Source: Owenia fusiformis (lineage: Eukaryota; Annelida; Polychaeta; Sabellida; Oweniidae). Taken from it: a stretch of DNA of 64,000 bases. Each line of letters starts with the position of its first letter. Positions within the stretch are counted from its first letter, which is position 1. The notes below the pieces were generated by a model. That model was not told the origin of the DNA. It made no database searches and saw only the letters and a program-made list of their open reading frames with translations. Both the position numbers and the translations under genes were made by a program. Location: contig CAIIXF020000001.1 of the NCBI GenBank assembly GCA_903813345.2, positions 34,565,366-34,629,365 on the forward strand. The letters are read 5' to 3'. Below, piece by piece: positions 8,401 to 50,458 of the stretch.

Positions 8401-11400
8401 CACATCGCGGGGGTCCGGGGGTATACTCCCCCGCAAATTTTTTTTCAAGGATGTAATTTGATGGAATCTAAGCGTTTTTATCAACTTTAAATGTTGATAA
8501 TGGTAAACATACAGATACGATAGGAAGCATCAATAAATTCGCAAATAAATTTATGCATTTTAACACATTTTTAATTGTTTTCAAATTCATTTGGTACGCC
8601 TGTGCGTATTTTGCGTAATAGGCGCTACGCCCATGAGTTTTGGAGGTTAGACTTCTTCAAGTACACTTTAAAAGAGGTTAAGATCAGGTATATACAACTT
8701 GTATACAGTTAAAAAGGGTTTTAAACAAAACAGTCTACCCAGAAGCAGTCAATACAATTTTTGAAATTTTAGAAAATTGTTTGAAACAAAAATGGTGGTC
8801 ATAAAAAGGAGAATAGAACGCTCTTCGATTCATTTTTTCATTTTTTTCTTTTTCTACCGTATGAATGTCATCACATTTTCAGATTGTATCATTTAGAGCA
8901 ATATATTGGGCACATTTTCTTAAATATTCAAAAGATTCTGTTCAGTGACCTTTCCTAAGCCCCTACTTTTAGCTATTTTTCAGTCACATTTTCAGAGGAC
9001 TGAAAAAGTTATTTCATCATGTTTAGGGTCATTCTCACCATGTACATTGTTATCCTGGTCATGTAAATGATATGTGGAACTAGTTAAATTGACTGGAGGT
9101 CAAAACAGAACTCTGTTCAAAAAATGAAGCATCTTTTGTCACTTCCTGTGTTGTCATTTCCTGGTAAGTACCTTAAATTTATTGAACCCCGGCTAGAAAT
9201 TTTCAATAGTTCTCGGTGTTCCAGATAGAATTACTTCTAGTCAAGAATTGGCTAGAGACTAGTGTAACATTAGTGTGCCTATAGTAAAATTTTAAATGTT
9301 TGGAACTATTTTGAATTTAAAAAATAAGCAAACCAGAACAACGGCAACGCCAAAGTGTAGCGAATCCCATCGAACAGAAATGACTGGCATTTTTACAAAC
9401 AAAATATATGACAAATATCATAAAATAACACACATAAGAAAGGCCACCATTTTCAAAATGGTTGCTCACTAGCCAAGTTGTCATCAGAAGAAGTAATATG
9501 CTTTTTTTTATAGTATTTATATAGTATTTATAGTACCTGTGAGTATCCTGAACTGCTTATCAAGAGTTCAGGAAGGCATTATTTTTGATCAACTTACCTG
9601 TTATTTTGATAATATTTTATCGCCACTACTTAGCGCTTTCAGGAAGGGGTATAGCTGCCAGTCTGTGTTACTAAAATTAGTCAAAGACTGGAAGCTTGCC
9701 CTTGATAATAACAAAGTGGTAGGTACGGTGTTAATGGACCTGTCAAAAGCGTTTGACTGTTTACCGCATGATATTTTAATAGCCAAACTCACTGCCTATG
9801 GAGTTAGCGACTCAGCTACTTCTCTCTTGAAAAGTTACCTCTCTGACAGGCCACAGAGAGTAAAAATTTCAAATTCAACTAGCTCATGGCAGACCATATT
9901 GAAAGGTATCCCTCAGGGAAGTATTCTTGGTCCCTGTCTCTTCAATATCTTTATAAATGACATATTTCTAGCCTTGAAGAACTGTAATTTATATAACTAT
10001 GCTGATGACAACACAATCTCTGTGATTGGTGAAAACAAACAATCAGTTCTTCAAGACCTGGAATCACAGTCTTCTCTTGCCATCAACTGGTTTAATCAAA
10101 ATAAAATGCTGGTAAACCCTGATAAATTTCAGGCTATGGTGTTACAACGTTCAAGGATTAACTCCAATTTCCTCCCAGATACTCTAACTTTTGGCAATGC
10201 TTCAATTCAAACAGGCAGATAGCACTACTTTTCGTGTAATGGTAAAATACTTCAAAATGGTGGCCATTTTTCAAAATGGCCGCCTTCTACCAAAAGTGTC
10301 ATTAGACAGTGTACCATGCTTAAAGTATTCACATACCAAATATGAACAAAATTAGTTATTTTGGCCACCCACACTCTTAGGTTGAGCCAAGTATTGCATG
10401 ATTTGAAGCAATTTTTACCAATTTTGCAAAGGGTTACTCAGTTACACTTGCACTTTACATAGTTCAACTTATATGAGAATACCCCTGGCCCTGTACATGT
10501 ATAAATCAATTTATCCTTCACTTGTTTTAAAGGCCCGATCTAAAGTTTAAACCACTTTGGCTTATATTGTAGTCTTACCCAATGTTATCAAAGTGTGATA
10601 TGTGAAACTTTTTTTTAAATTTCAAAAAGTGGTTTTTGATAGACTTAGGGTTAGGGACGAAAAATTTCGAACGCAATGTGTGACATATACGTAATTCGCG
10701 TGTAAAGTCCGAACGAAATGCGTACGTTTTTTTTCGGCGTTCTTTGTATATTCAGATAGTTACGTATAATGTGCAGCAAAGCTGTGGTCTTTTGTAATTA
10801 CGAGAACTAAATGAAATGCGAACATCCGAGCATCGAACAATTTACATTCCATCTTCACACATGTTCGGTAATATAACGTATCATAACTTCCAGAAATGAC
10901 AAGCCAGTAGGAACATGTTGGGGAATTTTTACAGTTCGTTTACATTTCTTGTATAACTGTACTTATTGTTGATCGGACGGAAAGATAAGCTGATGTAGTT
11001 ACATTGGAGTTTGTTTACTACCATTTGGAAGGCACATGAGGGTCCCATTCATCAGGTAACACTCATATGTCGAAGTTAACTTCTTGCCTTTTTTAACACG
11101 TAACAAGGAGTAGAGCATGAATATCAATATGAAATATGTAGATTAGAAGGCTGATGAAGGTCAGAGCCGTTCGATGGTGTACTATTTTTTTCAAGGCCTG
11201 TCTGCGTCGCTAACATGCTAAATATAAGAGTTAGCTGACGTTTGGGAGTCTGACTTACCTTCTAAAGGTTAGAACCCGAATCTTAATGAAACTATATCAC
11301 CTTTGTTGCGTCGATGATGATGCATAAACATAGCATTTGATAGAAATTAGCGTAAATGCTTTTCCGACTTTTTCATTTTTCATCAATGTTGACTTCCGGG

Positions 11401-15600: not shown

Positions 15601-18600
15601 CGTCATTAATATGTTACCTAACCAACAGAAAACAAGCAGTTACATGTAGTTTGTTCATTGTCTTTCTCTGTGGTATTTTCATAAAAAGTGGATCAGTTTT
15701 GTCAAAATAGCATTATGGCCTTCGTATTTTTCTAGTGTCATTTTCACTTGATTTTCTTGTTGTGAAGTCATTCAATCATTTGTCCTTCATAACTAGAAAT
15801 ATAACAGTTCCAGTGCTCTCCCCAGGATTTTTTTGTAGGGAGGATTTTGTAAAAAAAAATTGCAACATTTTGGGATTTTGTTATTCTGAAAATGCAACAT
15901 TTTAATATTTTTTACTCATAAAGTGCAACATTTGCGGATCTGGGGGGGGGAGCGCCCCCCCCCCCCCCCTTGGGTGGGCCCAGAAAAAAAATTGGGCCCA
16001 AAAAGGCCTTGTTGGTTCCCAGATCCGCCCCTGTTTACGTACTGATTATGCCTGTTTATCAAATATTTATGAAAAAAGTAATCTAGGTTTACATTTTTGG
16101 TAGATCTAATAAACTTTTAAAATTTTAATTTGCCGCTTTGTCCATTCAGCAAAAAAAGCATATTTTTTGTTGAAATTCCACAGGGCCATTTTTAGTTAAT
16201 CGGGCGACCAGATTCACTTAAAAAGTACTTACACTCGATTGTGTTGTACCAGACAACTTGCCAGCGGTGTGCTTCTGACATTCTTCTGATAAAATCAAGT
16301 AAATATATCGAGATGAGGGGAAAGTTCGGTTGTTTGAAATAGCGAACAATTCATTTTCATCCATGTTAATCTGTCATTGAACCAAATAAATGTGCGTTCG
16401 ATAAAGTTCTGCATATACAAACGACATGAATTTACGATCGATCAACTAAAATAGCGAACATTCGCTTTTCTTCCATGTAAATCTGTAATTGAAACAAAGG
16501 AATATGCATTCGATAAAACACTGCATAAGTGAAAATTTAAAAACAAACAAAACTTCAATTTTTCGGTAAGATTTTGTTATTTTAAATCTTTGAGGCGGAG
16601 AAACAACGTGTAAGGTTTGTCAGTGGCGCAAGGAATAACCATGAGGCGCATTTCTTTGATTGCAATTGTTTGGAGGCGCGGCGCCTCAGTAAGTTCAACG
16701 TAGGGAGAGCACAGAGTTCATAAATTCTTGTGGAGAAAAAGAATCTTGTCCACCATTCCCGAATCCAACTTGGCCCTCTTCTTAGTTACAAGATTTGATG
16801 CTGTTGAAAACATACGCTCGCTGGCAGTGCTTGTCACCTGAACACACAGAAGTTGTCTTGCCAGTCTAAAAACATTGTGTTGACAGTTACAATCAAGCCC
16901 TGGTCTGCTATTATATTTACTGAAACTACCTTGGCCACATTCTGTGAAAGTGATGCAGTTCAGTAAGCCCGCACTAAGTTACTGGCCCCTGATTTATTGT
17001 ATCCAAAGACATCTTAATATACATTAATACTCACATTCTCTTTTTTCCAGTTGGTCCCACTTTTCGTGGCCATTGCTGGTGGAATGGGCCTTTCTTTCAC
17101 GTATTTGGGACGTCTTGCATTTAAGTGTCCTGATGTCTGGTAAGTCCATTTTATTTTGAATGATTCATAACTGATACCACTCACTGTTATAGCCTAGTAT
17201 GAGTTTTATTTGCATGTGTTTTAAATGAGACAGTGGGTGAAGTTACATTTGTGTGTATTTTAAAGTCTACCAGAAATCACTTGATTTGTCTTTTCCTTTA
17301 TGAATTTTGCTGTTTATAATTATATTGTGTTTGCATATAATTTAAACCCTTTATTGTTGAATATGGAATTGTTAGGATCAACTTTTATTTGAACCCCTTT
17401 TTGAATCTTTTCAAATTGATTAAATCCAGGGCTTGCATTAACAGCGTCCTGTACATGTTAAGGACTCAAAAATAATTTGGAGGACGCAAAAATTGAAAAT
17501 ATTTCCGTTTTTTGGACGCAAATTTTTTTTAGGTCAATACTACAATGTGTTTACAACGATACCTAACAAAAACAAATAATTATGATCTCTCACCTTTATT
17601 TGAATCGTAAATAAGGCTCAACATGTTGAATATTTACAAATAATCATGATTCTCTCGAATTTTTTCGACTTTGTTTATTTTTAGATTTGAAACCATGACA
17701 CGCCACAGTTTTTCCTATTCAGAAACAAATATTACTAGGTTATTCATGAAATAAAATGTATTCATTGGCGAATGAACGAACATGCATTTATTCAGTCCGT
17801 ACTTAACGTTTACTTCCGTTTTAAATTCGCGGCAAGAAATCATGACAAGTAAGTTAATAAAAGTAACATTGGAAAGATGTTTTACTGACCTATTGTTGTG
17901 ATGAAGCAAAGAAAATCATGTGACAAAATTAACTTCAAGGTGTTTTGGTAAAAAATGCTTTTAAAATAAAGTTATACCTCAAAACAGGCTAGAAATAAAG
18001 GACACACTGGGACTCACAAATTTTCTAACCTAATGCAAGCGCTGATTAAATCTCATCAATAGTTCATCCTCGATCAACTTGTATTACTATCAGCTACTGT
18101 TATGTATGTATGTATAAATATTGTCAGTGAATTTCTAAAATCAGTTAAAATTGCTATTTTCTGGGAAAGTTCATGGTCCTACCCAGTCCTGGCTTAAAAC
18201 AGGTTAAGATACTCTTCTTAAGATCACTCCCTAGTTTAAATGTTTGTGCTCAGTAATTCATCATTAATTACAAACTTATGATTGTTAAAGATATCGGGTC
18301 TCCTAAAAACACAATTAGACTAACCCCCTGATTTTTTCGTGTTATTTGATGTAGTACAAGTTTATTTATCAACTTAAAAATTCTGAGGCTTGAATTAATT
18401 GGTTAACAGTATCAATTCGATGATTGTTCCTAGCCATGAATTTCCACTTTCAACAGTAGAAATTCAAAATAAAATTTAAAAAGCCCGCTCAAATTTGTTC
18501 CAGTCTGATTGGCTTTTTCCTTCAGTTTCAACAGATTGTTTTGACTCAGAGAAGCCATATTTATTACTTCTAAGGGGTTGAAATATAGATAAATCCCCAA

Positions 18601-22819: not shown

Positions 22820-23810
22820 TAACGCCGACAAATTTCGAAAACTGGAAGTAAAAAAAATATATGAATTATTGGTCAGAATTTTATAATTAGGGTCTCATTT
22901 TGAAAAAAAATCTTTCTTCTCTAAGATAAATGTCACTGCCTAACATTAAGATAAATTTAAATAAAAAAGTTTCTTTACTTTCTGATACCCATGCTAACGA
23001 CCGTTAGGTGCTATACAACCAAAACTCACCTTTATAGTGATTTCTCCCCAAATCTTTCGCCAATTAACTTGTCCTTTACTCGTAGAATCATTGACCCACT
23101 AGAGATTTGTAGGGATGCTGCGCTTATGCTGTTCAGCCTGTAAAAATATGTTATTTTGCCGTTTTAAAATAGAATTATGAAAGGTCAGACGGGTCAAGTT
23201 TACTACGTCATTATTTCAAGATGGCGGCAGAGAATCGTCAAACAGTCGTATTTTTAAAATTAGTATGCTTTTACACATTTTTGAACAATAATAGTACAAT
23301 TTGAACAGCGTATACCATTGCGTATGTGTGTATTACAACTGGATCAAACCAGAGATCAATCGACGAAACATTGAGGGAGAAATCGATCGATAAGGTAAAC
23401 TATGAAAAATATGTCTGTATAGGACTTCATGGTCTTATGCTAAGGTAACAGATAATACGAAAAAATCATATTTGCAGCGTGTCTACAAGTAATATCATGA
23501 CATGTATCAGGCCCGTAGCCAGGATTTGCCAAGGGGGGGTTCACTTTTTGGAAAATTCCAGGGGGGGTTCACTTTTGACAATTTGGGTCCAAAAAGGGCC
23601 AAAATCACTTAAAAAGTGCTCAGAATGGTGAAAAACTGCATGATTTTGAAAGAATTTTTGGCCAGGGGGGGTTCGCCCGAACCATGCGAACCATGCGATG
23701 TTGCAGCTAAATAATTTTTCTTAAAAATGAGACCCTTATTGTGGAATTCTGAACAATAGTTTTTTTTATTTTTTCATTTACAGAACCCGGAAGTAGTGAA
23801 GTGTTATTCC
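22820..23810. mobile_element. Inverted-repeat element, about 1 kb, carrying a second small element
   Basis: The left end (22838-22915: AACTGGAAGT, TTGGTCAGAATT, AGGGTCTCATTTT) returns inverted at 23720-23800. A GTAGCCAGGATTTGCC-type element with repeated GGGGGGGTTCAC blocks occupies about 23512-23690 and looks inserted. No transposase is visible. Confidence 0.6.
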
Positions 23811-26089: not shown

Positions 26090-26229
26090 TTAATTTAATA
26101 TCTGGATGTAGAGTAAATACCAAATAAAATCAACATAATCATGATTTGTACTCTCTTTGTACTCTGCTATTAGTTTCAAAGGATAGGTATCGATATGGAG
26201 AACTCAATTCAACAATGTTTTTCTCTTAA

Positions 26230-26633
26230 GGTTCAGCTGGAAAGTAACATTTTGGTAAAAAATTGCTATACCTGCACATGTTATTTTCTGGTACAAAATT
26301 AAGTAGGAAGGAATGTGTGTATTTCCTTGCTTTTTTCAGGAAAGTATCATTACACTGTCTTCTTTTAGAATATCTGGATACAGGTCAATGATAGCTTCTG
26401 TGTTGTTTGTAAACTTTGAAAGAAAATTTGGAAAAATAGAAAGTGTGAAATATCAGAATTTCCTGGAGTTCCCATTGAACGCCTACCAGATATTCTAAAA
26501 GAAGACAATGTAATGATACTTTCCTGAAAAAAGCAAGGAAATTGACACATGGCTTCATACTTTATTTTGTACCAGAAAATAACATGTGCAGGTATAGCAA
26601 TTTTTTACCAAAATGTTACTTTCCAGCTGTACC
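26230..26633. mobile_element. TTAA-flanked palindromic element (404 bp)
   Basis: Arms of about 150 bp (26230-26375 and 26487-26633) are inverted copies; the left starts GGTTCAGCTGGAAAGTAACA and the right, inverted, GGTACAGCTGGAAAGTAACA. TTAA lies on both sides (26226-26229 and 26634-26637). The terminal wording resembles that of the 24.9-26.1 kb element, so the two may use the same transposase. Confidence 0.82.
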
Positions 26634-26945
26634 TTAAACCAATCATTGAAAACATTCTGTAAAAAACATGGTATTTTTTTATTTAATGCGAAAATTATTT
26701 AGAAATATTTTATATAACGGTTTTTGTTAACATTTTTTTTTTTTTAGTGCAATTGTTTTTGCTCCTTTCTACCAATTCTTGAGAATGAAATAAAATGTCT
26801 TTCCGAACCTTGTTGGAACAAAATAGCATATACAACATAGTTTTAGACCTCTTAATATTAAAGTTATACAAAGGAATTTTTCGCCAAGTGGAGTCAGTAA
26901 AACGATCGCATTCGGCATGTGGACTCAGTAATATAGCTGTTCTAG

Positions 26946-28089: not shown

Positions 28090-28261
28090 ATCCCCAGGGT
28101 TTTAGGATTTGTTGAAGGGGGGGTCTTTTTTAAAAAAAATACAGGGGGGCTCACTCTTGACAACATTGTCCCAAAAATGGCAAAATCACTTGAAAAGTGC
28201 TCAGTAAGGTGAAAAACTGCATGATTTTGAAAGGATTTTGGCAAGGGGGGGTTTTGGCATG
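28090..28261 (-). repeat. GGGGGGCTCAC-type element piece abutting the minisatellite
   Basis: The segment 28140-28261 (AACATTGTCCCAAAAATGGC, AAAACTGCATGATTTTGAAA) matches, inverted, 49330-49437, which lies inside the 47.5-50 kb array. A more distant relative is at 23520-23690. At both places the same base-level junction TTTTGGCATGCTCCTAG joins it to the minisatellite. Confidence 0.75.
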
Positions 28262-28690
28262 CTCCTAGCCTGACCCCACCCCAGCGTAGTATACGTAGTA
28301 AGTGTAGTAAGTGTAGTATGCTCCTAGCCTGACCCCTACCCCAGCGTAGTATCGTAGTATACGCAGTAAGTGTAGTAAGTGTAGCATGCTCCTAGCCTGA
28401 CTCTACCCCAGCGTAGTAGCGTAGTATACTTAGTAAGTGTAGTAAGTGTAGTATGCTCCTAGCCTGACCCTACCCCAGCGTAGTAGCGTAGTATACGTAG
28501 TAAGTGTAGTAAGTGTAGTATGCTCCTAGCCTGACCCCAACCCAGCGTAGTAGCGTAGTATACATAGTAAGTGTAGTATGCTCCTAGCCTGACCCCTACC
28601 CCAGTGTAGTATCGTAGTATACGTAGTATGCGTAGTTAGTGTAGTAAGTGTTATGTGCTCCTAGGCTGACCCCACTCCAGCGTAAGCAAA
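28262..28690 (-). repeat. GTAGTA minisatellite, left arm, about 7 units
   Basis: Units of about 60-67 bp are written GTATGCTCCTAGCCTGACCC...CCAGCGTAGTA on this strand, the reverse complement of the 47.5-50 kb array. Confidence 0.85.
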
Positions 28691-29072
28691 TTACATCGGA
28701 CCCCGTACAAGCCCGTACGGAGCTCGTTGTATCAACGGACCCTGTACAACCTCGTACGGACATCGTTCCGAGTCTGGTAATTGCTTGTAATTTTTGAGCC
28801 TCGTAAGAGCTTGTGATTACAAGGCCCGTAATAGCTCGTAATTTCCGACCATCGTACTTGACCATACGGTGCCCGTAACGAGCCCCGTAATAAATCGTAA
28901 TTTTCGATCCCCTTACTTCCTTGTACGGTGCCAGTTACGAGGCCCGTAATAGCTCGTAAGTTTCGAGCCTTGTAATTGCCTGTGCGATGCCCGTAACAAA
29001 GCACGTAATGGCTCGTAATTTTCGAGCACTGTACTTGCCCGTACGGGGCTCGTAACAAGGCTCGTTATTACT
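28690..29072. repeat. Degenerate CGTACGAG tandem units, left arm
   Basis: About five units of 60-70 bp carry words such as CCCGTAACGAG, GCTCGTAATTTTCGAGC and TTGCCCGTACGG. Many are self-complementary. The mirror block is at 32575-32755. Confidence 0.7.
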
Positions 29073-30435
29073 CGTTTATTTTGATGAACACTTTTTGATC
29101 AATGAAATAAAATACAGCATACTTGAGAAATGACATTTCAATTATATCTAATTATGAATTAATATGTCTCCAATAATTTCCAATAATTTCAAAATATTCT
29201 CATGTCTGTATCAACATGATAAACAGTATAAAAGCTAGGAAACAGAATAAACAGGAGGGTTACCATTAGGAGACACCGTATTTCTCTACAAGTGAAGTAA
29301 ATGCATATAAAAACATTTGTGTGCGGTATTCACTGGGGGGTATCGTGATGCAACAACACCGTGTTGTTGCATCAAGATGGCCAGACTTCCAGTGATAGAT
29401 TTTCGTACGATGTTTTGTTTTCCCAATTTACACCCATTTCTAGGACGAGTTGCTCAATAATCATACACATGCAGTTAGCGCATGATCTATATTTTAAAAA
29501 ACTGTCATTGGTATACATGTAGCATCATCAAGAAGCGATAAATTCGTGGTTTTGATTCCTCACTATTGATGTAACAACACCACTCTGTTTCTTATCGATG
29601 ATGCAACAACACCAATGCGCTGATGCAAAAACGCCAATATAATGTATCATTGAACAACAAGAGAAACTGTTTTATGTTCTGTTTACAGTTGTAGGTCGGG
29701 ACATGAATAAAACGTGTGAGTCAGTGGTCCATGAACGAAACTTATTTTGTTTGGTTTCTTTGTCTATATCAAAGTTAAAAGGATATACAAGGCAAACTAA
29801 ATAAAGTACTGAATCCCCGGGAGGCAATCTCATTGATATTGTATCTGAAAAATAAAGATTATACATTTTCTAAATTAAATGCCCTTGATTTGCCGTATGG
29901 AAATTGTTTACAAATAACTAATATAATTTTGGAAAGACAACAGATATCAGTCATTTTGTGTTGTTAGTAATGTTAGTAACTCAATTGAAATACTCAATTC
30001 TGATTGGTTGATGAGCGGTCAACAAAATGTATTGTTAGTACCTCAACTGAAAAACTTGATTCTGATTGGTTGATTAGCGGTCAAAATTATGTACTGTTGA
30101 CCGCTACTAGGTACTGTTGACCGCTACTTCTGAAAAAAAGTTTCATGACGTCACAAAAAAACATGGGAGACGGACATTTTGTAAACGTTGATGAAAATGA
30201 CTTTACTAGGCGACAAGTATAGCAAAAATACAATTAGAAACTTAAAATTAACATTAATTCACTAACGAGTACGCCGTGATGTGCCAAATACAGAGTTAAG
30301 CTACTTGCACTGTCTCCAGATTTTCTAAAAAAAATATTGCTAACGTGGTTCGGAGAAAAGGTTGTGAAATGAAGCCATGCCGATTGATGATTGTCGTCTA
30401 TATGTGTATTATTAGTTTACTCGGACTAACAAAAC

Positions 30436-31136
30436 AATTGTAGACCTCTCCATTAGATCAACCGTCAAAATCATATACCACGACTGTAAACCTTGAAACT
30501 ACTGTTGACCTCGACCTTCGGTCTCTGTCAACAGTAGTTTTTCGGTTTACAGTCTCGGTATACAATTTTGCCGGTTGACCTCTGGGGAGGTCAACAATTG
30601 TAAACTGTTGACCACTACTAGGTACTGTTGACCGCTATTTTTGAAAAATTGTTTTTTTAATGTTGAAATTTTTTAATTTTGAAAAATTACAAGTATTCGA
30701 CGGTTTGGGGATTTTTTGCTAAAATATGATACCTTTACTTATCAAATATGTTCACGTGATATCCGATTACATATTCGTCCAATCATTATATTATTTGGAC
30801 TAACAGAACAATTGTTAACCTCTCTTTTCGGTCAACTGGCAAAAGTGTCCTCGACCTCTGGTCTTCATCAACAGTACTTTCAAGGTTTACAGTATCGGTA
30901 TACAATTTTGCCAGTTGACCTTTAGAGAGGTCTACAATTGTATATTATATCCTTCAAATTATTATATTCTTCGGACTAACAAACAATTGTTAACCTCTCT
31001 ATTCGGTCAACTGGCCAAAGTGTATACCTCAACAGTAAACCCTGAGAGTACTGTTGACCTCGACCTCCGAACTTTCAAGGATTACAGTATTGGTATACAA
31101 TTTTGCCAGTTGATCTCAAGAGAGGTCTACAATTGT
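30436..31136. repeat. Three palindromic GTCAACAGTA modules
   Basis: Modules at about 30436-30605, 30796-30947 and 30974-31136 each run from CAATTGT-ACCTCTC to GAGAGGTC-ACAATTGTA with a central CTGTTGAC...GTCAACAGTA fold. Each is close to an inverted repeat of itself. Shorter TGACCGCTACTAGGTACTGT words occur nearby (30095-30125, 30610-30640). They fill the core of the large inverted structure. Confidence 0.7.
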
Positions 31137-32755
31137 ATATTGTATATCTTTTGTTATCCCACCCAAAGTATGATGTCATATATCAAGTTGAAGAGTTGTA
31201 TACGCTGCTCAGGAGTTTACGCTATCCAGGAGTTGTACATCGTTCTCAAGAGATGTATGTTAATATTGCAGTTATACAATGCTATTATATAAAGGTTATT
31301 TACTGAGAGGGATTCAATATTGGTTTTATTCCGAGAGACAATATGATATTTCCCGAGGGCCTGGGATATCTGGGATAACTGTACCCCTATCAATTTACCT
31401 TTTCGGGCCCTTAATCTTATCACTTTTGTTTACCTTTTTACTCAGTCGGAGAGAAGGAATCCAAAGAGAGCAATAATTCTACATGTGCGTCGTGCAAGAT
31501 TTCCATTAAACGTGTAACTAAACGGCCTCTCTAATAAAGTCAATTAGACGTTTTTACACGTTGGCTCTCCAAATTGGAGGAAATAAAGAATCATATCATA
31601 TTATATCATAGATGAAGCAATCATCCCATCAACATAAGCTCACGCATGTCACAGTTAAACTGTTTTAGTTATAATTTGATAAACAGTGGTAACGTACATC
31701 TACTAGTTTATCACTGTTCCACAGATGGATGACAGATAATTTCCAATAGCTCGTTATGTTTACCGAGAACGAAAGATGTTTGTCCACCATTTTGAATGAT
31801 ACTAACTGGAGTCAGGGTCATTAAGCTATGGAACAGTGGTTTATGAAAATAGATTGGGTTGCTAAAGCTTGCCATGTTAAAGGCGATTGAACTATGTTAT
31901 AGAACAACGTCCAGTACATTATAATATTTAAAAGTATAAATTTTTGAAAATACATATAAAGGATCTTCGCCCACAGGACGTGTATTTTGAATGCCTTGAG
32001 AAGAACGCAAATATGGGAAATGGGTAACGGTGTTGCAATGGTAGCATTTAAAAATCTGTTCCTCTCGAGATCTATGGTCTTCTGAAATTATACTATTAAT
32101 TGGTGTTGCTGCATCATTGCTCAAATCTAGAGGAGTGTTGTTGCATCTTCGGTTTGGTGTTGTTGCATCAATAGTGAGGAACTAAAACCGTGAACTTATT
32201 GCTTCTTGGTGATGGTACATGTATACTAATGACAGTTTCTTTAAATATAGATCGTGCGCTAACTGCACGTGTATGGTTATTGAGCAACTCGTCCTAGAAA
32301 TGGGTTTAAATTGGGGAAACAAAATATCGTACGAAAATCTATCACCGGAAGTCTGGCCATCTTGATGCAACAACACGGTCAACAACACGGTGTTGTTGCA
32401 TCACGATACCCCCCAGTGGGTATTGGAATAAGTTGAAATGTGATGTAAATAAATGTTACTGTTATCGAATGTGTGAATAAACACAGCTATAGATGTGATC
32501 AAACATACACAGCATGTTCTGGATAGATACGTGAATCATGTACCATGAGAGCAATAAAAAAATTTTGATTGGATTTCGATAACGGGCCTTGTACGAGCTT
32601 GTACGGGCATCGAAATAACGAGCCTCGTACATGCTCGTACGGGCCTCGAAAACAAACTCCGTACGAGCCCGTACAAGGATGGTGCTCCTTTTTGCCCGTA
32701 ATGACTCGTAATTTTCGAGGCTGTACTAGCTCGTACGGGGCCCGATGTAATACAC

Positions 32756-32955
32756 TTACTACGTATACTACGCTACTACGCTGGGGTTGGGTCAAGCTAG
32801 GAGCATACTACACTTACTACACTTACTACGTATACTACGCTACTACGCTTGGGTGGAGTCAGGCTAGGAGCATACTACACTTACTACGTATACTACGCTG
32901 GGGTGGGGTCAGGCTAGGAGCATACTACACTTACTACACTTACTACGCATACACA
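32756..32955 (+). repeat. GTAGTA minisatellite, right arm, about 3 units
   Basis: TACTACACTTACTACG and GGTCAGGCTAGGAGCATAC words in the same orientation as the 47.5-50 kb array and opposite to 28262-28690. Confidence 0.85.
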
Positions 32956-37160: not shown

Positions 37161-37216
37161 AAAGGCGCAGCCAGGAGGGGGGGGTGCGATCGCAACCTCC
37201 CCCATAACAATAAAAA
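37161..37216. mobile_element. Left half of a CAGGGGCGTAGCC-type element split by the array
   Basis: GGCGCAGCCAGG, a G run and CCCATAACAATAAAA match the left part of the intact copy at 35170-35407 (GGCGTAGCCAGG, G run, GCATAACCAATAAAA). The match stops where the higher-order array begins. The right half appears 8 kb away at 45190-45268. Confidence 0.65.
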
Positions 37217-40200
37217 CTAGACTTTGGAAATTGAACGAAGTTCAATTTCAGACTCCAGATCTAGACTTTTTGGCCGAGTCATCCAGAATAAGCAGAGTCA
37301 TCCAAAATAAGCTGAGTCATCCAGAAAAAGATGGATGGATGAAAAAGGAAGGAAGGATAGGCTAGAATAGGAAGGAACGATAGGATAGGATAGGAAAGAA
37401 TGATAGAATAGAATATGAAGAAGGAATAGAATAGGAAGGATAGGAAGGAGAGGATACGAAGGAAAGGTAGATAAGAAGGATACGATAGGATCACAAAGGA
37501 AGGATGGATGCATTTTTCAATATTTTCTTCTCTACTCTTGACTTTCTATCAGGATACCATCAGATCGATTTTTCTCGAAATTTCAAAATGCCATAACTTT
37601 CGAATCGGAAGTCGGATCGAAATTTGGTTTGCAGACTCAGATTCCTGAGAAAATTCTACCCTTAATTCATAACTCATATGTTAAATTTGGAGAACTTTTT
37701 ATTTTGACCTACTTTTCGGACACCATATCTCAAAAGTGGGTAGAAATACTTTCTGACGGCAAAAGGCTAACACTATTAGCACACTTTTTCCTACCTTTAT
37801 ACAAAATTTTGAAGCAAATCATTCAAACATAGTGTCAGAATCGCAAAAATAAGGAAAAACTATGAATTTGACCTAGATTTTGACCTGGGGATTTTGGTGT
37901 CCAAATTTTGAAGTAAGGTAGCCTTCGAGGTCCCCTTCTTTCATAGGCTTTCATTATTTTAAGCTGTACTTAGTCTATATCTCGAATTTTACACTTCAAA
38001 AAAATCTTTTTTCCCATTGACATAACATGTGGCACCAAATTTAGCGATTTTTGAGCTTTCAAAATGTCATAACTTCCGAACAGGAAGTCGGATCGAAATT
38101 TGATTTGCAGATTCGGATTCCTGAGAAAATTCTATACTTAATTCATAACTCAAACGTTAAGTTTGGAGAATTTTTTATTTTGACCTACTTTTCGGGCACC
38201 ATATCTCAAAAGTGTGGCAAAATACTTTCTGACGGCAAAAGGCTTACACTATAAGCACACTCTTGGCTACATGTATACAAAATTTCTAAGAATATAATCA
38301 ATCTGTAGTGTCAGAATCGCAAAAATAAGGAAAAACTTTGAATTTGACCTAGATTTTGACCTAGGCATTTTGGTGTCCAAATTTTTATGAAAAGAAGGTT
38401 TTGAGGTCCCTTTCTTTTATGGGCTTCCATTATGTTTAGCTGTGCTTAGTCTGTATCTCGTATTTTACACTTCAAAACAAATAATTTTCCCATTGAATTA
38501 ACATGGGGCACCAAATTTAGCGATTTTTGAATTTTCAAAACGCCATAACTTCTGAACCGAAAGTCAGATCGAAATTTGGTTTTCAGATTCGGAATCCTGA
38601 GAAAATCACCTATATAATAAGACTGATATCCTGGACATTGGATTCGGAGAATTTTTTTTTGGACCTCGTTTTCGGACACTAATATCTCGAAATCGGTTTG
38701 AGATACCAAAAAACTAAATCGACCCTAGATTTTCTACTTTTTTTATGAGGAACACAATGAAAAAAACCCGGATCAAAAATATTGAAGGACGACCGAGAAA
38801 ATCGAAAAAAGTGACAAAGTACTGGATTTGACCTAGTTCTCGACCTTTGACCTAGATAAAAATTTGACCCAATTTCCCACCAACTAGATACTGAACCTAA
38901 ATGAACTGTATAATGGTCTTTACTGAATACCTTATAGTTATTGAAAAAACTCTTAAAGAAAAATAATAATAACTAGACCTGGGAAATTGAACAAGTTCAA
39001 TTTCAGACTCCAGATTCTTCTGGGGTTTTTAAAAAGACAGATGGACAGACGGATGGAAGGACGGACTGGCTGGACTTGGACTGGACCTTGACTGGATTTG
39101 AACCTTGACTGGATTGAACCTGGGCTGGTCTTGGACTGGACTTAGACTATACTTGGACCTGTACTGGCCTTGGAACTGGACTGGAATTGACCTGAACCTG
39201 GACTTTGACTGGACTGGAACCTGATTTGGACTAAGACCTGGACTTGGACCTGTAAATGGACTGGACAGGTATTTTTTCGATTTTTTCTTCACTTCTCTTG
39301 ACTTTCTATAAGGCTATCATCAGATCGATTTTTCTCGAAATGCCATAACTTTTGAACAGGAAGTCTGATCGAAATTTGATTTGCAGATTCGGATTCCTGA
39401 GAAAATTCTATCTTTAATTCATAACTCATACGTTAAATTTGGAGAACTCTTTATTTTGACCTACTTTTCGGACACACCATAACTTCCGAACCGGAAGTCG
39501 GATTGACATTTGGTTTGCAGATTCGGATTCCTGACAGAATTCTACCCTTAATTCATAACTCATATGTTCAATTTGGAAAACTTTTTATTTTGACCTACTT
39601 TTCGGACACCATATCTCAAAAGTGGGCCAAAATACTTTCTGACGGCAAAAGGCTAACACTATTAGCCCACTCTTGGCTACATATATACACAATTTCGAAG
39701 AATATAATTAAAGTGTAGTGTCAGGATCGCAAAAATAAGGATAAACTATGAATTTGACCTAGATTTTGACTTGGGGATTTTGGTGTCCAAATTTTGAAGT
39801 TAAGTAGCCTTCTTTCATAGGCTTTCATTATTTTAAGCTGTACTTAGTCTAAATCTCGTATTTTACACTTCAAAAAAATCTTTTTTCCCATTGCCATAAC
39901 ATGGGGCACCAAATTTAGCGATTTTTGAGCTTTCAAAATGTAATAACTTCCAAACCGGAAGTCGGATCGAAATTTGGTTTGCAGATTCGGATTCCTGAGG
40001 AAATTCTATACTTAATTCATAACTCAAACGTAAAATTTGGAGAATTTCTTATTTTGACCTACTTTTCGGACACCATATCTCAAAAGTGGGGCAAAATACT
40101 TTCTGACGGCAAAGGGCTATCACTATTAGCACACTCTTGGCTACATGTATACAAAATTTAGAAGAATATAATTAATCTGTAGTGTCAGAATCGCAAAAAT

Positions 40201-42791
40201 AAGGAAAAACTTTGAATTTGACCTAGATTTTGACCTAGGCATTTTGGTGTCCAAATTTTGAAGCTAGATGGCTTTTTAGGTCCCATTCTTTTAAAGGCTT
40301 TCATTACATTTAGCAGAACTCGGTCTATATTTCGTATTTTTCACTTCAAAAAAATATTTTTTCCCATTGATTTAACATCGGCATCAAATTTAGCGATTTT
40401 CGAGCTTTCAAAACGCCATAACTTTCGAACCGGAAGTTCGATTTGAATTCGGTTTTCAGATTCGGAATCCTGAGAAAATTTCCTATAAGACTAATATCAT
40501 GGACATTTGATTCAGAGAACTTTTTTTTGGACCTCGTTTTCGGACACTGATATCTCGAAATCGGTTCGAGATATCAAAAATCTAAATCGTATTGCGTTTT
40601 TCTACTTTTTTATGAGGAACACAATGAAAAAACCCGGATCAAAAATATTGAAGGACGACCGAGATAATGGGAAAAAGTGACAAAGTACTGGATTTGACCT
40701 AGATAAAAATTTGACCCCATTTCCCACCAACTAGATACTAGACCTTATTTGACCATATAATAGTCTTGAAAAGATACCTTATAGTTATTGAGAAAACGTG
40801 CACAGTAAAATAAGAATAAGAATAAGAACTAGATTTTGGAAATTGAACGAGTTCAATTTCAGACTCCAGATCTAGACTTTTTTAAGCCCAGTCATCCAGA
40901 ATAAGCCGAGTCATCCAGAATAAGCTGAGTCATCAAAAATAAGCTGAATCATCCAGAAAAAGGTTGATAGGCGGATTGAATAGGAAGAAGGAATAGGATA
41001 GAATAGGAAGGAACGATAGGATAGAATAGAAAAGAAGGATAGGAGAGAATAGGAAGAAAGGATAGGATATGGAGGATAGGAAGTAAAAAATATGAAAGAA
41101 GGATAGATAGGAAGGATAGGATAGGATCAGATAGGAAGGATAGGATCAGATAGGAAGGATAGGATAGGATCAGATAGGATAGGAATGATGGATGGATGAT
41201 GGATATCATCAGATCGATTTTTCTCGAAATTTCATAATTTCCAGACCGGAAGTCAGATCGAAATTTGGTTTGCAGATTCGAATTCCTGACAAAATTCTAC
41301 CCCTAATTCATAACTCATACGTTAAATTTGGGAACTTTTTATTTTGACCTACTTTTTGGACACGCCATTGCTTTCGAACCGGAAGTCGGATCGAAATTTG
41401 GTTTGCAGATTCGGATTCCGGACAAAATTCTACTCCTAATTCATAACTCATACATTAAATTTGGAGAACTTCTTATTTTGACCTACTTTTCGGACACCAT
41501 ATCTCAAAAGTGGGTCAAAATACTTTCTGACGGCAAAAGGCTAACACTATTAGCACACTCTTGGCTTCTTATATACACTATTTCGAAGAATATAATTAAA
41601 GTGTAGTGTCAGAATCGCAAAAATAAGAATAAACTATGAATTTGACCTAGATTTTGACCTAGGGATTTTGGTGTCCAAATTTTGAAGTTAGGTAGCCTTC
41701 GAGGTCCCCTTCTTTCATAGGCTTTCATTATTTTAAGCTGTACTTAGTCTATATCTCGTATTTTACACTTCAAAAAAATCTTTTTTCCCATTGACATAAC
41801 ATGGGGCACCAAATTTAGTGATTTTTGAGCTTTCAAAATGTCATAACTTCCGAACCGGAAGTCGGATCGAAATTTGGTGTGCAGATTCGGATTCCTGAAA
41901 AGATTCTATACTTAATTCATAACTCAAATGTTAAATTTGGAAAAAAAAAATTTTTGACCTACTTTTCGGACACCATATCTCAAAAGTGGGGCAAAATACT
42001 TTCTGACGGCAAAAGGCTAACACTATTAGCACACTCTTTGCTACATGCATACAAAATTTCGAAGAATATAATTAATCTGTAGTGTCAGAATAGCAAAAAT
42101 AAGGAAAAACTTTGAATTTGACCTAGATTTTGACCTAAGCATTTTGGTGTCCAAATTTTGAAGCTAGATGGCTTTTGAGGTCCCATTCTTTTATGGGCTT
42201 CCATTATATTTAGCTGAACTCAATCTATATTTCGTATTTTTCACTTCAAAAAAATCTTTTTTCCCATTGACTTAACATGGGCACCAAATTTAGCGATTTT
42301 TGAGCTTTCAAAACGCGATTACTTCCGAATTGGAAGTCTGATTCGAATTTGGTTTTCAGATTCGGAATCCTGAGAAAATTTTCTATAAGACTAATATCAT
42401 GGACATTTGATTCGGAGAACTTTTTTTTGAACCTCGTTTTCGGACACTGATATCTCGAAATCGGTTTGAGATATCAAAAAACAAAATCGATACTGGGTTT
42501 TCTACTTTTTTATAAGGAACACAATGAAAAAACCCCGGATCGAAAATATTAAAGGACGACCGAGAAAATCGAAAAAAGTGACAAAGTACTGGATTTGACC
42601 TAGTTCTTGACCTTTGACCTAGATAAAAATTTGACCCAATTTCTGAGGAACTAGATTCTGGACCTAAATTGACCAAATGACTGACTTTACTAAAAACCTT
42701 ATGGTTATTGAGAAAACTGGTTTAGAATAATAAGAATAAGAATAAGAAAACTGACGAAAACAATAGACTCCAGATTTTATCTGGAGTCTAA

Positions 42792-43505
42792 TAATAGGAT
42801 TTGGCTATACGCGTTTCGAGGGTAATGGCTCTACGGACGCTTTGAGGGCCTATAACGGTCGATTAAAGGACGGGTAATCGTCGGAGGTAGCTGGGGATAA
42901 TGCCTGGCTCGTGCTTTGCGGATCCGTCGAGGTCAAAAAATAGTTCTTCAAAAAATAGGCCTTCCAGACGTCCATATAGGGCTTTCGACATAGATTCGAG
43001 CAGCGTACGTATCGTTCTACATTCCGCAATCGTTAGTTGGACGAAGGGAAATGTTGTTTTAGAAATGCTCTAGTCATCGTTCTGGCCTATTTTCTTTCAA
43101 ATGTCTGTTGTTCGCAGAGATACGTATACATCGTGCATTCGTGCCGTCTAGATATACGGCAACGGTGGCCCGTACGCGAACTTCAAACGCGTATATCTCG
43201 ATAACTAATGGTCGGATTTCAGTTTGGTTCACAGTTTTTTTAAAGCTCGGAAAACTGTCTTTCCGACCAGCTAGTTTTCCTCCGATTCTGACTTCTTAAG
43301 GAGGCTCGAGAGGCCAAAATAGCGGAAATGCAGATTTCGACCTAGATTTCGACCTTTGACCCAGATAAGGATTTGACCTAATTTCCCATCAATTACGCCT
43401 AGCCCCCTAACAACGTGTATGAGTAGATTTATCCAAATATCTCACGTTAATGAGCACGTGTGTGTAGAAAGATTTTTGCTTTTGCACATACAAAAGCAAA
43501 AATCA
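42792..43505 (+). repeat. Divergent GC-richer unit within the array, with terminal hairpin
   Basis: This segment sits between units 3 and 4. It keeps only family phrases (TCGACCTAGATTTCGACC, TCGGATTTCAG, ATTTGACCTAATTTCCCA) at low similarity. It ends in a hairpin with 14-bp arms, GATTTTTGCTTTTG and its complement (about 43470-43503), directly followed by ACTAGA, the start of unit 4. Confidence 0.65.
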
Positions 43506-44929
43506 CTAGACCTGGGAAATTGAACAAGTTCAATTTCAGACTCCAGATTCTTCTGGGGTTTTTAAAAAGACAGATGGACAGACGGATGGAAGGACGGACT
43601 GGCTGGACTTGGACTGGACCTTGACTTGATTTGAACCTTGACTGGATTGAACCTGGGCTGGTCTTGGACTGGACTTAGACTATACTTGGACCTGTACTGG
43701 CCTTGGAACTGGACTGGAATTGACCTGAACCTGGACTTTGACTGGACTGGAACCTGATTTGTACTGAGACCTGGACTTGGACCTGTAAATGGACTGGACA
43801 GGTATTTTTTCGATTTTTTTCTTCACTTCTCTTGACTTTCTATAAGGCTATCATCAGATCGATTTTTATCGAAATTTCAAAATGCCATAACTTTTGAACA
43901 GGAAGTCTGATCGAAATTTGATTTGCAGATTCGGATTCGTATTTTACACTTCAAAAAAATCTTTTTTCCCATTGCCATAACATGGGGCACCAAATTTAGC
44001 GATTTTTGAGCTTTCAAAATGTCATAACTTCCCGGAAGTCGGATCGAAATTTGGTTTGCAGATTCGGATTCCTGAGGAAATTCTATACTTAATTCATAAC
44101 TCAAACGTTAAATTTGGAGAATTTCTTATTTTGACCTACTTTTCGGACACCATATCTCAAAAGTGGGGCAAAATACTTTCTGACGGCAAAGGGCTATCAC
44201 TATTAGCACACTCTTGGCTACATGTATACAAAATTTAGAAGAATATAATTAATCTGTAGTGTCAGAATCGCAAAAATAAGGAAAAACTTTGAATTTGACC
44301 TAGATTTTGACCTAGGCATTTTGGTGTCCAAATTTTGAAGCTAGATGGCTTTTTAGGTCCCATTCTTTTAAAGGCTTTCATTACATTTAGCAGAACTCGG
44401 TCTATATTTCGTATTTTTCACTTCAAAAAAATATTTTTTCCCATTGATTTAACATGGGCACCAAATTTAGCGATTTTTGAGCTTTCAAAACGCCATAACT
44501 TTCGAACCGGAAGTCCGATTTGAATTTGGTTTTCAGATTCGGAATCCTGAGAAAATTTCCTATAAGACTAATATCATGGACATTTGATTCAGAGAACTTT
44601 TTTTGGACCTCGTTTTCGGACACTGATATCTCGAAATTGGTTCGAGATATCAAAAATCTAAATCGTATTGCGTTTTTCTACTTTTTTATGAGGAACACAA
44701 TGAAAAAAACCCGGATCAAAAATATTGAAGGACGACCGAGATAATGGGAAAAAGTGACAAAGTACTGAATTTGACCTAGTTCTTGACCTTTGACCTAGAT
44801 AAAAATTTGACCCCATTTCCCACCAACTAGATACTAGACCTTATTTGACCATATAATAGTCTTGAAAAGATACCTTATAGTTATTGAGAAAACATGCACA
44901 GTAAAATAAGAATAAGAATAAGAATAAAC

Positions 44930-45147
44930 AAAAGAGGCAAAAACAATAGACTCCAGATTTCATCTGGAGTCTAATAAGAATAAGAATAAACAAAAGAGGC
45001 AAAAACAATAGACTCCAGATTTCATCTGGAGTCTAATAAACAAAAGAGGCAAAAACAATAGACTCCAGATTTCATCTGGAGTCTAATAAGAAGAAGAAGA
45101 ATACTGGCAAAAACAATAGACTCCAGATTGACATCTGGAGTCTAATA
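44930..45147 (+). repeat. Four tandem copies of the unit-end hairpin
   Basis: AGACTCCAGAT..ATCTGGAGTCT hairpins occur at about 44948, 45008, 45058 and 45117, separated by AAGAATAAG/AAACAAAAGAGGC spacers. The final unit thus has its 3' end amplified. Confidence 0.8.
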
Positions 45148-47545: not shown

Positions 47546-50055
47546 TTCCCGTTGTGATACTACGTATACTATGCTACTACGCTGGGGTAGGGTCAGGCTA
47601 GGAGCATGCTACACTTACTACACTTACTACACTTACTACGTATACTACGCTACTACGCTGGGGTAGGGTCAGTCTAGGAGCATACTACACTTACTACACT
47701 TACTAAGTATACTACGCTGCTACTCTGGGGTAGGGGTCAGGCTAGGAGCATACTACACTTACTACGTATACTACGCTACTACGCTGGGGTGGGGTCAGGC
47801 TAGGAGCTTACTAAACTTACTAAACTTACTACACTTACTACGCATACTACGTATACTACGCTACTACGCTGGGGTAGGGGTCAGGCTAGGAGCATACTAC
47901 ACATACTACACTTACTACGTATGCTACGCTACTACGCTGGGGTAGGGGTCAGGCTAGGAGCATACTACACTTACAACACTTACTACGTATACTACGCTAC
48001 TACGCTTGGGTGGGGTAAGGCTAGGAGCATGCTACACTTACTACACTTACTACGTATACTACGCTACTATGCTGGGGTGGGGTCAGGCTAGGAGCATGCT
48101 ACACTTACTACACTTACTACACTTACTACGTATACTACGCTGGGGTGGGGTCAGGCTAGGAGCTTACTACACTTACTACGTATACTACGCTACTACGTTG
48201 GGGTAGTGTCAGGCTAGGAGGATACTACACTTACTACGTAAACTACGCTACTACGCTGGGGTGGGGTCAGGCTAGGAGCATACTACACTTACTACACTTA
48301 CTACGTATACTACGCTACTACGCTGGGGTAGGGTCAGGCTAGGAGTATACTACACTTACTACACTTACTACGCATACTACGCTACTACGCTGGGGTAGGG
48401 TCAGGCTAGGAGCATGCTACACTTACTACACTTACTACGTATACTGCGCTACTACGCTGGGGTAGGGTCAGGCTAGGAGCATACTACACTTACTATGTAT
48501 ACTACGCCACTACGCTGGGGTAGGGTCAGGCTAGGAGCATACTACACTTACTACACTTACTACATATACTACGCTACTACGCTGGGGTAGGGTCAGGCTA
48601 GGAGCATACTACACTTACTACGTATACTACGCTACTACGCTGGGGTGGGGTCAGGTTAGGAGCATGCTACACTTACTACGCATACTACGTATACTACGCT
48701 ACTACGCTGGGGTAGGGTCAGGCTAGGAGCATACTACACTTACTACACTTACTACGTATACTACGCTAGGGTAGGGGTCAGGCTAGGAGCATGCTACACT
48801 TACTACACTTACTACACTTACTACGTATACTACGCTACTACGCTGGGGTGGGGTCAGGCTAGGAGCTTAATACACTTACTACGTATACTACGCTACTACG
48901 TTGGGGTAGGGTCAGGCTAGGAGGATACTACACTTACTACGTAAACTACGCTACTACGCTGGGGTGGGGTCAGGCTAGGAGCATACTACACTTACTACAC
49001 TTACTATGTATACTACGCTACTACGCTGGGGTAGGGGTCAGGCTAGGAGCATACTACACTTACTACACTTACTACGCATACTACGTATACTACGCTACTG
49101 CGCTGGGGTAGGGGTCAGGCTAGGAGCATACTACACTTACTACACCTACTACGCATACTATGTATACTAAGCTACTACGCTGGGGTGGGGTCAGGCTAGG
49201 AGCTTACTACACTTACTACGTATACTACGCTACTACGTTGGGGTAGGGTCAGGCTAGGAGGATACTACACTTACTACACTTACTACGTAAACTACGCTAC
49301 TACGCTGGGGTGGGGTCAGGCTAGGAGCATGCCAAAACCCCCCCTTGCCAAAATCCTTTCAAAATCATGCAGTTTTTCACCTTACTGAGCACTTTTCAAG
49401 TGATTTTGCCATTTTTGGGACAATGTTGTCATGCTACACTTACTACACTTACTACGCATACTACGCTGGGGTAGGGTCAGGCTAGGAGCATACTACACTT
49501 ACTACGTATACTACGCTACTACGCTGGGGTAGGGTCAGGCTAGGAGCATACTACACTTACTACGTATACTACGCTACTACGCTGGGGTGGGGTCAGGCTA
49601 GGAGCATGCTACACTTACTACACTTACTACGCATACTACGCTACTACGCTGGGGTAGGGTCAGGCTAGGAGCATACTACACTTACTACACTTACTACGTA
49701 TACTACGCTACTACGCAGGGGTAGGGGTCAGGCTAGGAGCATGCTACACTTACTACACTTACTACATATACTACGCTACTACGCTGGGTTGGGGTCAGGC
49801 TAGGAGCATACTACACTTACTACGTATACTACGCTGGGGTAGGGGTCAGGCTGGGAGCATACTACACTTACTACGTATACTACGCTACTACGCTGGGGTA
49901 GGGGTCAGGCTAGGAGCATACTACACTTACTACACTAACTACGCATACTACGCTACTACGCTGGGGTAGGGGTCAGGCTAGGAGCATACTACACTTACTA
50001 CACATACTACGTCTACTACGCTGGTACGCTGGGGTGGTCTCAGGCTAGGATTGCA
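47546..50055 (+). repeat. GTAGTA minisatellite array, about 37 units
   Basis: Units of about 50-80 bp (commonly about 67) are built from TACTACACTTACTACG, TATACTACGCTACTACGCTG and GGGTAGGGTCAGGCTAGGAG. I count about 37 GGCTAGGAG-type landmarks. Length varies by gain or loss of ACACTTACT and TACGCATAC sub-blocks. A foreign 105-bp block interrupts at about 49330-49437. The array is the same family and orientation as 32756-32955 and opposite to 28262-28690. It ends about 400 bp before the PIGG start codon. Repeated Tyr/Thr-rich frames are repeat translation. Confidence 0.92.
49330..49437 (+). repeat. GGGGGGTT-type element piece inside the minisatellite
   Basis: CCAAAACCCCCCCTTGCC through GGGACAATGTTGTC, the reverse complement of 28140-28261. 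It joins the array at the same word (GGAGCATGCC) as the junction at 28255-28270. Confidence 0.8.
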
Positions 50056-50458
50056 CAGGCTATGTATACTACGCTGCTACACATGTTTTTTCACATAACT
50101 CGTGCAGCACATGCATGAGAATTTCCCTATAAAGCATTTGGTAATTAGCGGCCATCTTGGACATAATGAGGTCGCATGAGCTTACAAAACGCTCTTACCG
50201 ACTACTTTAGTAAGGGTTTCGAGACTATTTTAGCACAGGTCTTGGAAACCCGGGTCCTGTCAATGTTTGCCATCGACCCTTTCTCCCTTTCTGAGAGAGA
50301 ATTGGCTTGCCTGAATCAAATTGCAATCAACTGCTCATAAAATAAGTTATCATAAGACTGCAAATTAGCATATTTGAAATTTGCAATTATCAATGTTATT
50401 TAATCTATATGAATATACACTGTTGCTGAATAAGTTTTTTTTCTCGATAGGATGAAGA
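50056..50458 (+). promoter_or_regulatory. PIGG upstream region with a candidate 5' UTR splice acceptor
   Basis: The stretch between the minisatellite and the PIGG start codon. A pyrimidine-rich TTTTTTTTCTCGATAG ends at 50450, a good acceptor just before the start codon, so the coding exon may follow a non-coding first exon upstream (perhaps 50100-50300). An ATG at 50452 lies out of frame 7 bp before the main ATG. Confidence 0.45.

Follow-up and report, generated by a model that had tools for sequence, protein, structure and literature searches.

The layered, inverted 4.7-kb structure at positions 28262–32955 is very probably a nest of DNA transposons and not one unit. The window, that is, the whole 64,000-nucleotide stretch of Owenia fusiformis DNA analyzed here, lies on contig C1 (62.2 Mb) of an assembly of 498 Mb in 525 contigs, which was searched as the genome; every element copy compared comes from this single assembly. 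In the order of events, a TA-flanked element of ~1 kb (the CG element) came first, and a 3.1-kb non-autonomous element with CA..TG ends then entered its spacer, duplicating GGTATT. On either side of the CG element lie inverted pieces of a GTAGTA satellite, which elsewhere forms the arms of a large layered TIR element. We read all three layers as cut-and-paste transposons because they have inverted ends and flanking duplications of fixed length, and the mirror order follows from each layer being itself an inverted-repeat structure.

Sequence comparison within the window revealed the mirrored layers at both ends of the structure. The satellite arms (28362–28511 and 32748–32897) are 93% complementary over 150 nt, the inner arms (29358–29582 and 32155–32379) are 92% complementary over 225 nt, and blocks rich in CGTACGAG occupy 28686–29065 and about 32571–32751. 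The mirror order reported in a preliminary description of this DNA was therefore borne out, as was its account of a core with palindromic modules and no known transposase; the window copy of the inner element contains no open frame longer than 157 aa. The satellite arrays that it placed at the two edges are present with corrected limits (28259–28684 on the plus strand and 32748–32955 on the minus strand), and a third, longer GTAGTA array at about 47557–50080 on the minus strand, together with a terminal repeat at 50081–50199, was absent from it. A 15-bp motif, TGATGCAACAACACC, occurs 12 times in the window with up to three mismatches, compared with 2.16 expected, a count reached by none of 100 shuffles; 10 of the 12 occurrences fall within the structure, between 29346 and 32403. 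The features of the structure are as follows.

28259–28684, plus strand: GTAGTA satellite, left array
28686–29330, plus strand: CG element, left part (CGTACGAG-type blocks and spacer), outermost CACAG absent
29325–29330, plus strand: left GGTATT target duplication
29331–32418, plus strand: inner non-coding TIR element of 3,088 bp, opening with CACTGGGGGG and closing with CCCCCCAGTG
29331–29635, plus strand: inner-element left arm, in which the 15-bp motif occurs five times
30434–31143, plus strand: related palindromic modules in the core (30434–30601, 30868–31057 and neighbors)
32102–32418, minus strand: inner-element right arm, in which the 15-bp motif occurs five times
32419–32424, plus strand: right GGTATT target duplication
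32425–32751, plus strand: CG element, right part, outermost TTGCCTGTG absent
32748–32955, minus strand: GTAGTA satellite, short inverted array, sharing 4 ambiguous bases with the CG end

The inner element, with ends CACTGGGG...CCCCAGTG of the CA..TG type, belongs to an abundant family. Genome searches with its arm and its core (40 of 730 and 40 of 2,864 candidates scored, respectively) found the two co-occurring at many places, and an end pattern 30 bases long, two of them degenerate, gave 244 forward and 269 reverse matches (513 in all), the reversed-pattern control giving none. Examination of 31 loci, some of them overlapping (L009–L038 and L059), yielded 23 two-ended copies. Target duplications of 5 bp (12 copies) or 6 bp (7 copies) flank 19 of these, the remaining four having 4 bp (one copy) or 0–2 bp (three copies); none of 506 swapped flank pairs reached 5 bp. 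The copies at L016 and L017 have mirrored flanks on the same contig and may represent a single event.

Across the 23 copies the TGATGCAACAACACC-type motif occurs 227 times, never more than 420 bp from an end and at near-constant positions, with ten per copy in 22 copies and seven in L026. Among 22 inner copies (the window copy left out), median identity was 98.0% between left arms, 98.8% between right arms, and 92.0% between left and right arms, the last both within and between copies. Left arms are thus closer to the left arms of other copies than to their own right arm, and homogenization of the arms within a copy was not seen. The right hairpin of the window copy (32363–32403) has about 13 extra bases missing from most other copies, and its right arm measures 340 nt, compared with mostly about 325 nt elsewhere. 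End pairs of the family lying 6–22 kb apart also occur among the matches listed. One inner copy (L059, G000:C2:22134900-22140100) has 5.2 kb between its ends, its core being interrupted by a further inverted insert about 2 kb long; it was considered as an autonomous relative and rejected, the insert being non-coding and the longest open frame 148 aa.

The CG element provides the empty sites. A search with 28690–29350 as query gave 183 candidates, of which 40 were scored and 20 fetched besides the window copy. Most copies with both ends are about 1.0 kb long with ends of the form TA|CACAGG, and TA|CACAGGCAAATTACATCGG was present at 35 of the 37 ends found. In 18 of the 20 other copies the insertion site is uninterrupted, the left and right spacer being joined directly, and the closest copies (L039, L040, and L041) have one GGTATT or a near variant at the insertion point; part of the site is missing from the other two, L055 and L053, of which L053 keeps the right half alone. 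Copies reading straight through a single GGTATT indicate that the inner element inserted into the CG element and duplicated this hexamer. Neither the inner arms nor the satellite motif was found at any of the 20 other CG loci; L041 has one 78-bp core fragment of the inner element about 1.3 kb outside the CG element. Reciprocally, no CG or satellite motif was detected at 36 other inner-element loci, some overlapping (L002–L008 and L010–L038), or at L059.

These observations bear directly on whether the 4.7 kb form one undescribed layered foldback element, the type for which the preliminary description had nominated them. Three layers in mirror order favor such a reading. However, none of the 20 other CG copies contains the inner arms, the fetched inner-element loci are devoid of CG and satellite motifs except where they overlap the window, and a GGTATT target duplication lies inside the structure, at the ends of the inner element. 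With empty CG sites and layers occurring alone, a single 4.7-kb unit is ruled out, and we regard this reading as almost certainly wrong. The preliminary description had also reasoned that single layers at other loci would point to a chance inverted duplication. Such single layers were indeed found for the inner, CG, and satellite sequences; the conclusion drawn from them does not hold for the inner and CG layers, each of which is mobile with its own inverted ends and flanking duplications.

The third layer was traced to a rare element of 10–31 kb whose arms, at five loci, are formed by the GTAGTA satellite (unit about 67 bp). A genome search with the satellite, in which common words were skipped, returned at least 196 matches from 15 candidates. 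Among the matches listed, the satellite occurs at C1:7.33/7.36 Mb, at two C3 loci, at one C4 locus, and in the window, plus a single match on C8, and the four other two-armed loci (C1, C3 twice, and C4) have a left array on the plus strand and a right array on the minus strand. A terminal domain of ~119 bp lies in inverted orientation at the outer edges of the arrays; it has eight matches genome-wide, at the four other loci and at 50081–50199 of the window, and a shorter pattern of it gave seven matches, with none for the control. Alignment distinguished end type A (L061, L064, L065, and the window) from end type B, which has two subtypes (L062/L068 and L063/L066), and the three loci that retain both ends all pair an A end with a B end. 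Both loci with two intact tips have 8-bp target duplications, AAAGTTTG at the C1 copy and CATGCCTT at the first C3 copy, which show that the element is mobile. The C1 copy measures 31,041 bp, the first C3 copy 10,078 bp, and the second C3 copy, whose B tip is cut, 13,573 bp; at the C4 locus no terminal repeat was found at the left edge read. A sequence at the inner edge is common to both C3 copies and the C4 locus, on one side only in each, and an inner domain inverted in both arms was found at none of the five loci. Interiors otherwise differ where read at their edges, and one of them holds what resembles, by eye, a reverse-transcriptase fragment.

The window copy of this element is incomplete, and its parts besides the two short arrays listed above are as follows.

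28104–28258, plus strand: SINE-like repeat fragment (a descriptive label) adjoining the left satellite
47557–50080, minus strand: main GTAGTA array, right arm, including the repeat fragment 49331–49430
50081–50199, minus strand: terminal (flanking) domain, end type A
50200–50207, plus strand: GACTACTT, where the right half of the 8-bp target duplication would be expected

The A end at 50199 is 97% identical to the A end of the C1 copy. The genome-wide terminal-domain search placed no second terminal repeat near the window copy, and GACTACTT recurs in the window only at 6572, which is not beside a terminal repeat. The window therefore keeps the A end alone, the B end having been lost. The SINE-like fragment has a relative at 23521–23673 and a shorter inverted piece at 49331–49430 in the right array, with an identical junction. 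The left end of the element was probably lost at a break here, possibly through recombination between such repeat fragments. The two short, mutually inverted satellite arrays beside the CG element would belong to the large satellite-armed element. The earlier remark that foldback elements with satellite arms are known in flies accordingly suits the satellite layer, as arms of a larger element with its A end at 50199, and not the 4.7-kb interval. Between the satellite arrays, 37200–44980 holds several direct repeats of 1–1.5 kb, 85–96% alike, with 476-bp tandem units. Immediately to the right of the A end, 50456–55131 holds a PIGO/PIGG-type gene, with a Pfam PIGO_PIGG match in the frame 54241–55131; the frame at 50456, itself without a Pfam match, resembles the start of this gene by eye, and if so read, about 260 bp separate the end of the satellite element from the gene downstream.

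How the satellite came to lie on both sides of the CG element is less settled than the nesting of the inner element. The tips of the CG element are eroded (about 6 bp missing on the left and 9 bp on the right) and inverted satellite lies on two sides, so that a simple insertion into a satellite array does not explain this layer; insertion may have occurred at the center of an inverted satellite pair. Alternatively, the pair could be a local rearrangement of the array at 47.6–50 kb, copied in inverted orientation together with the repeat fragment, a plausible account that we hold to be slightly less probable than not. It draws on the 88% match over 516 columns between 28158–28636 and inverted 48927–49431, with the same repeat-to-satellite junction, and on the right array being the best match for four of the six left units and for both units of the right piece, a comparison biased in its sampling because the right array of the window supplied 34 of the sampled units. 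Set against it, two of the six left units are closer to an A-side unit on C3, and no further flanking DNA is duplicated, the flanks having just 27 bp in common. That GTAGTA is an ordinary tandem satellite, with the terminal repeats as mere neighbors, seems very improbable: among the satellite matches listed, the single one on C8 comes without a terminal-domain match and would fit, but every one of the eight terminal-domain matches is at a satellite locus, their A/B arrangement is fixed, and at two loci the array together with the interior is enclosed by 8-bp duplications.

Transposase genes were sought by domain searches for hAT, MULE, IS1595, and RAG1, none of which placed a match in the satellite loci or inside checkable copies. 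The hAT domain gave 137 matches (150 of 182 candidates scored), none of them inside an inner-element end pair among the about 100 of 513 ends listed. MULE transposase had eight matches genome-wide and the IS1595-type DDE domain four, none in the five satellite loci, the interiors of which were read in part; RAG1-like transposase matched nowhere in the genome, as did its control. A hAT dimerization-domain fragment lies in the window at 16721–16885 on the minus strand (G000:C1:34582086-34582250). As the window copies and the DNA next to them yielded no transposase, these copies would have moved by cut-and-paste in trans, through transposases encoded elsewhere. The 15-bp motifs at the ends of the inner element, and perhaps the satellite arms too, may serve as transposase-binding arrays, by analogy with Galileo and Tetris; the repeats of Galileo are reported to contain secondary binding sites (PMC4079207, PMC3573991). 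We consider it unlikely, though worth stating, that the satellite element is a giant polar foldback of 10–31 kb with functionally different A and B ends, kilobase satellite arms acting as transposase-binding arrays, and perhaps its own transposase in the ~22-kb C1 interior, with the inner element as a distinct lineage in which staggered cuts of 5 bp and of 6 bp are both tolerated.

The satellite, inner, and CG elements are new families of known kinds, likened to these by description. The satellite element has the hallmarks of foldbacks, namely an outer inverted domain, inverted tandem-repeat arms, and a target duplication within 8–10 bp. A Mutator-superfamily origin has been suggested for most foldbacks, and the TU elements of sea urchin make 8-bp duplications and carry short tandem repeats in the outer domain of their terminal repeats; the satellite element resembles TU elements, as generally described, in its tandem-repeat arms and 8-bp duplications. 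Sea-urchin foldbacks are also cited in the report on Tetris, a foldback of Drosophila virilis with an external flanking domain, a variable tandem-repeat domain, and a middle of variable size (PMC4079207). Tetris has target duplications of 8–10 bp, a unit of about 220 bp, TIRs that include an inner domain, few complete copies, and no transposase found (PMC4079207). The satellite element matches Tetris in anatomy, a likeness of plan and not of aligned sequence: both have an outer domain, tandem repeats, a variable middle, duplications that can be 8 bp, few complete copies, and no transposase found. By contrast, its unit is ~67 bp (vs about 220 bp), it spans 10–31 kb, its A and B ends are distinguishable, and its inner-edge sequence is one-sided at three loci, whereas the TIRs of Tetris have an inner domain.

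Galileo, of the P superfamily in Drosophila, is described as having long TIRs with internal tandem repeats, 7-bp duplications, and common non-coding copies consisting of two TIRs (PMC3573991). Our elements share the long TIRs with internal tandem repeats and the frequency of non-coding two-TIR copies, but the inner element duplicates 5–6 bp and the satellite element 8 bp, unlike the 7 bp of Galileo. For the inner element, the 5- and 6-bp duplications fit hAT5 and hAT6, respectively, and the CA..TG ends agree with the CMCT group, to which Transib, EnSpm, and others belong and which has mostly CA..TG ends and 2–5-bp duplications (PMC12730594); the inner family differs in having both 5 and 6 bp within one family, and it yielded no transposase by which to place it. 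Its TA target (35 of 37 ends) and short conserved ends liken the CG element to Tc1/mariner. Non-autonomous elements of the Tc1/mariner kind have a TA target and short conserved ends. TA targets also occur in other groups, such as PHISTA and ESTA (PMC12730594).

Mirrored layered repeats need not constitute one element, as nested inverted-repeat transposons give the pattern unaided. The rare satellite-armed element follows the Tetris plan, occupies five loci in the 498-Mb genome, and is shown by its target duplications to be mobile; it offers a small, countable system for asking whether arms seed satellites or transposons capture satellites. Elsewhere in the window, reverse-transcriptase fragments (Pfam RVT_1) are present at 5441–6013 and 9497–10222. 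A near-perfect palindrome of 833 bp at 58854–59686, 88% self-complementary and beside 162-bp tandem repeats (58124–58854), is possibly another foldback-like element, and a further self-complementary stretch occupies 26226–26637 (424 columns, 81%).
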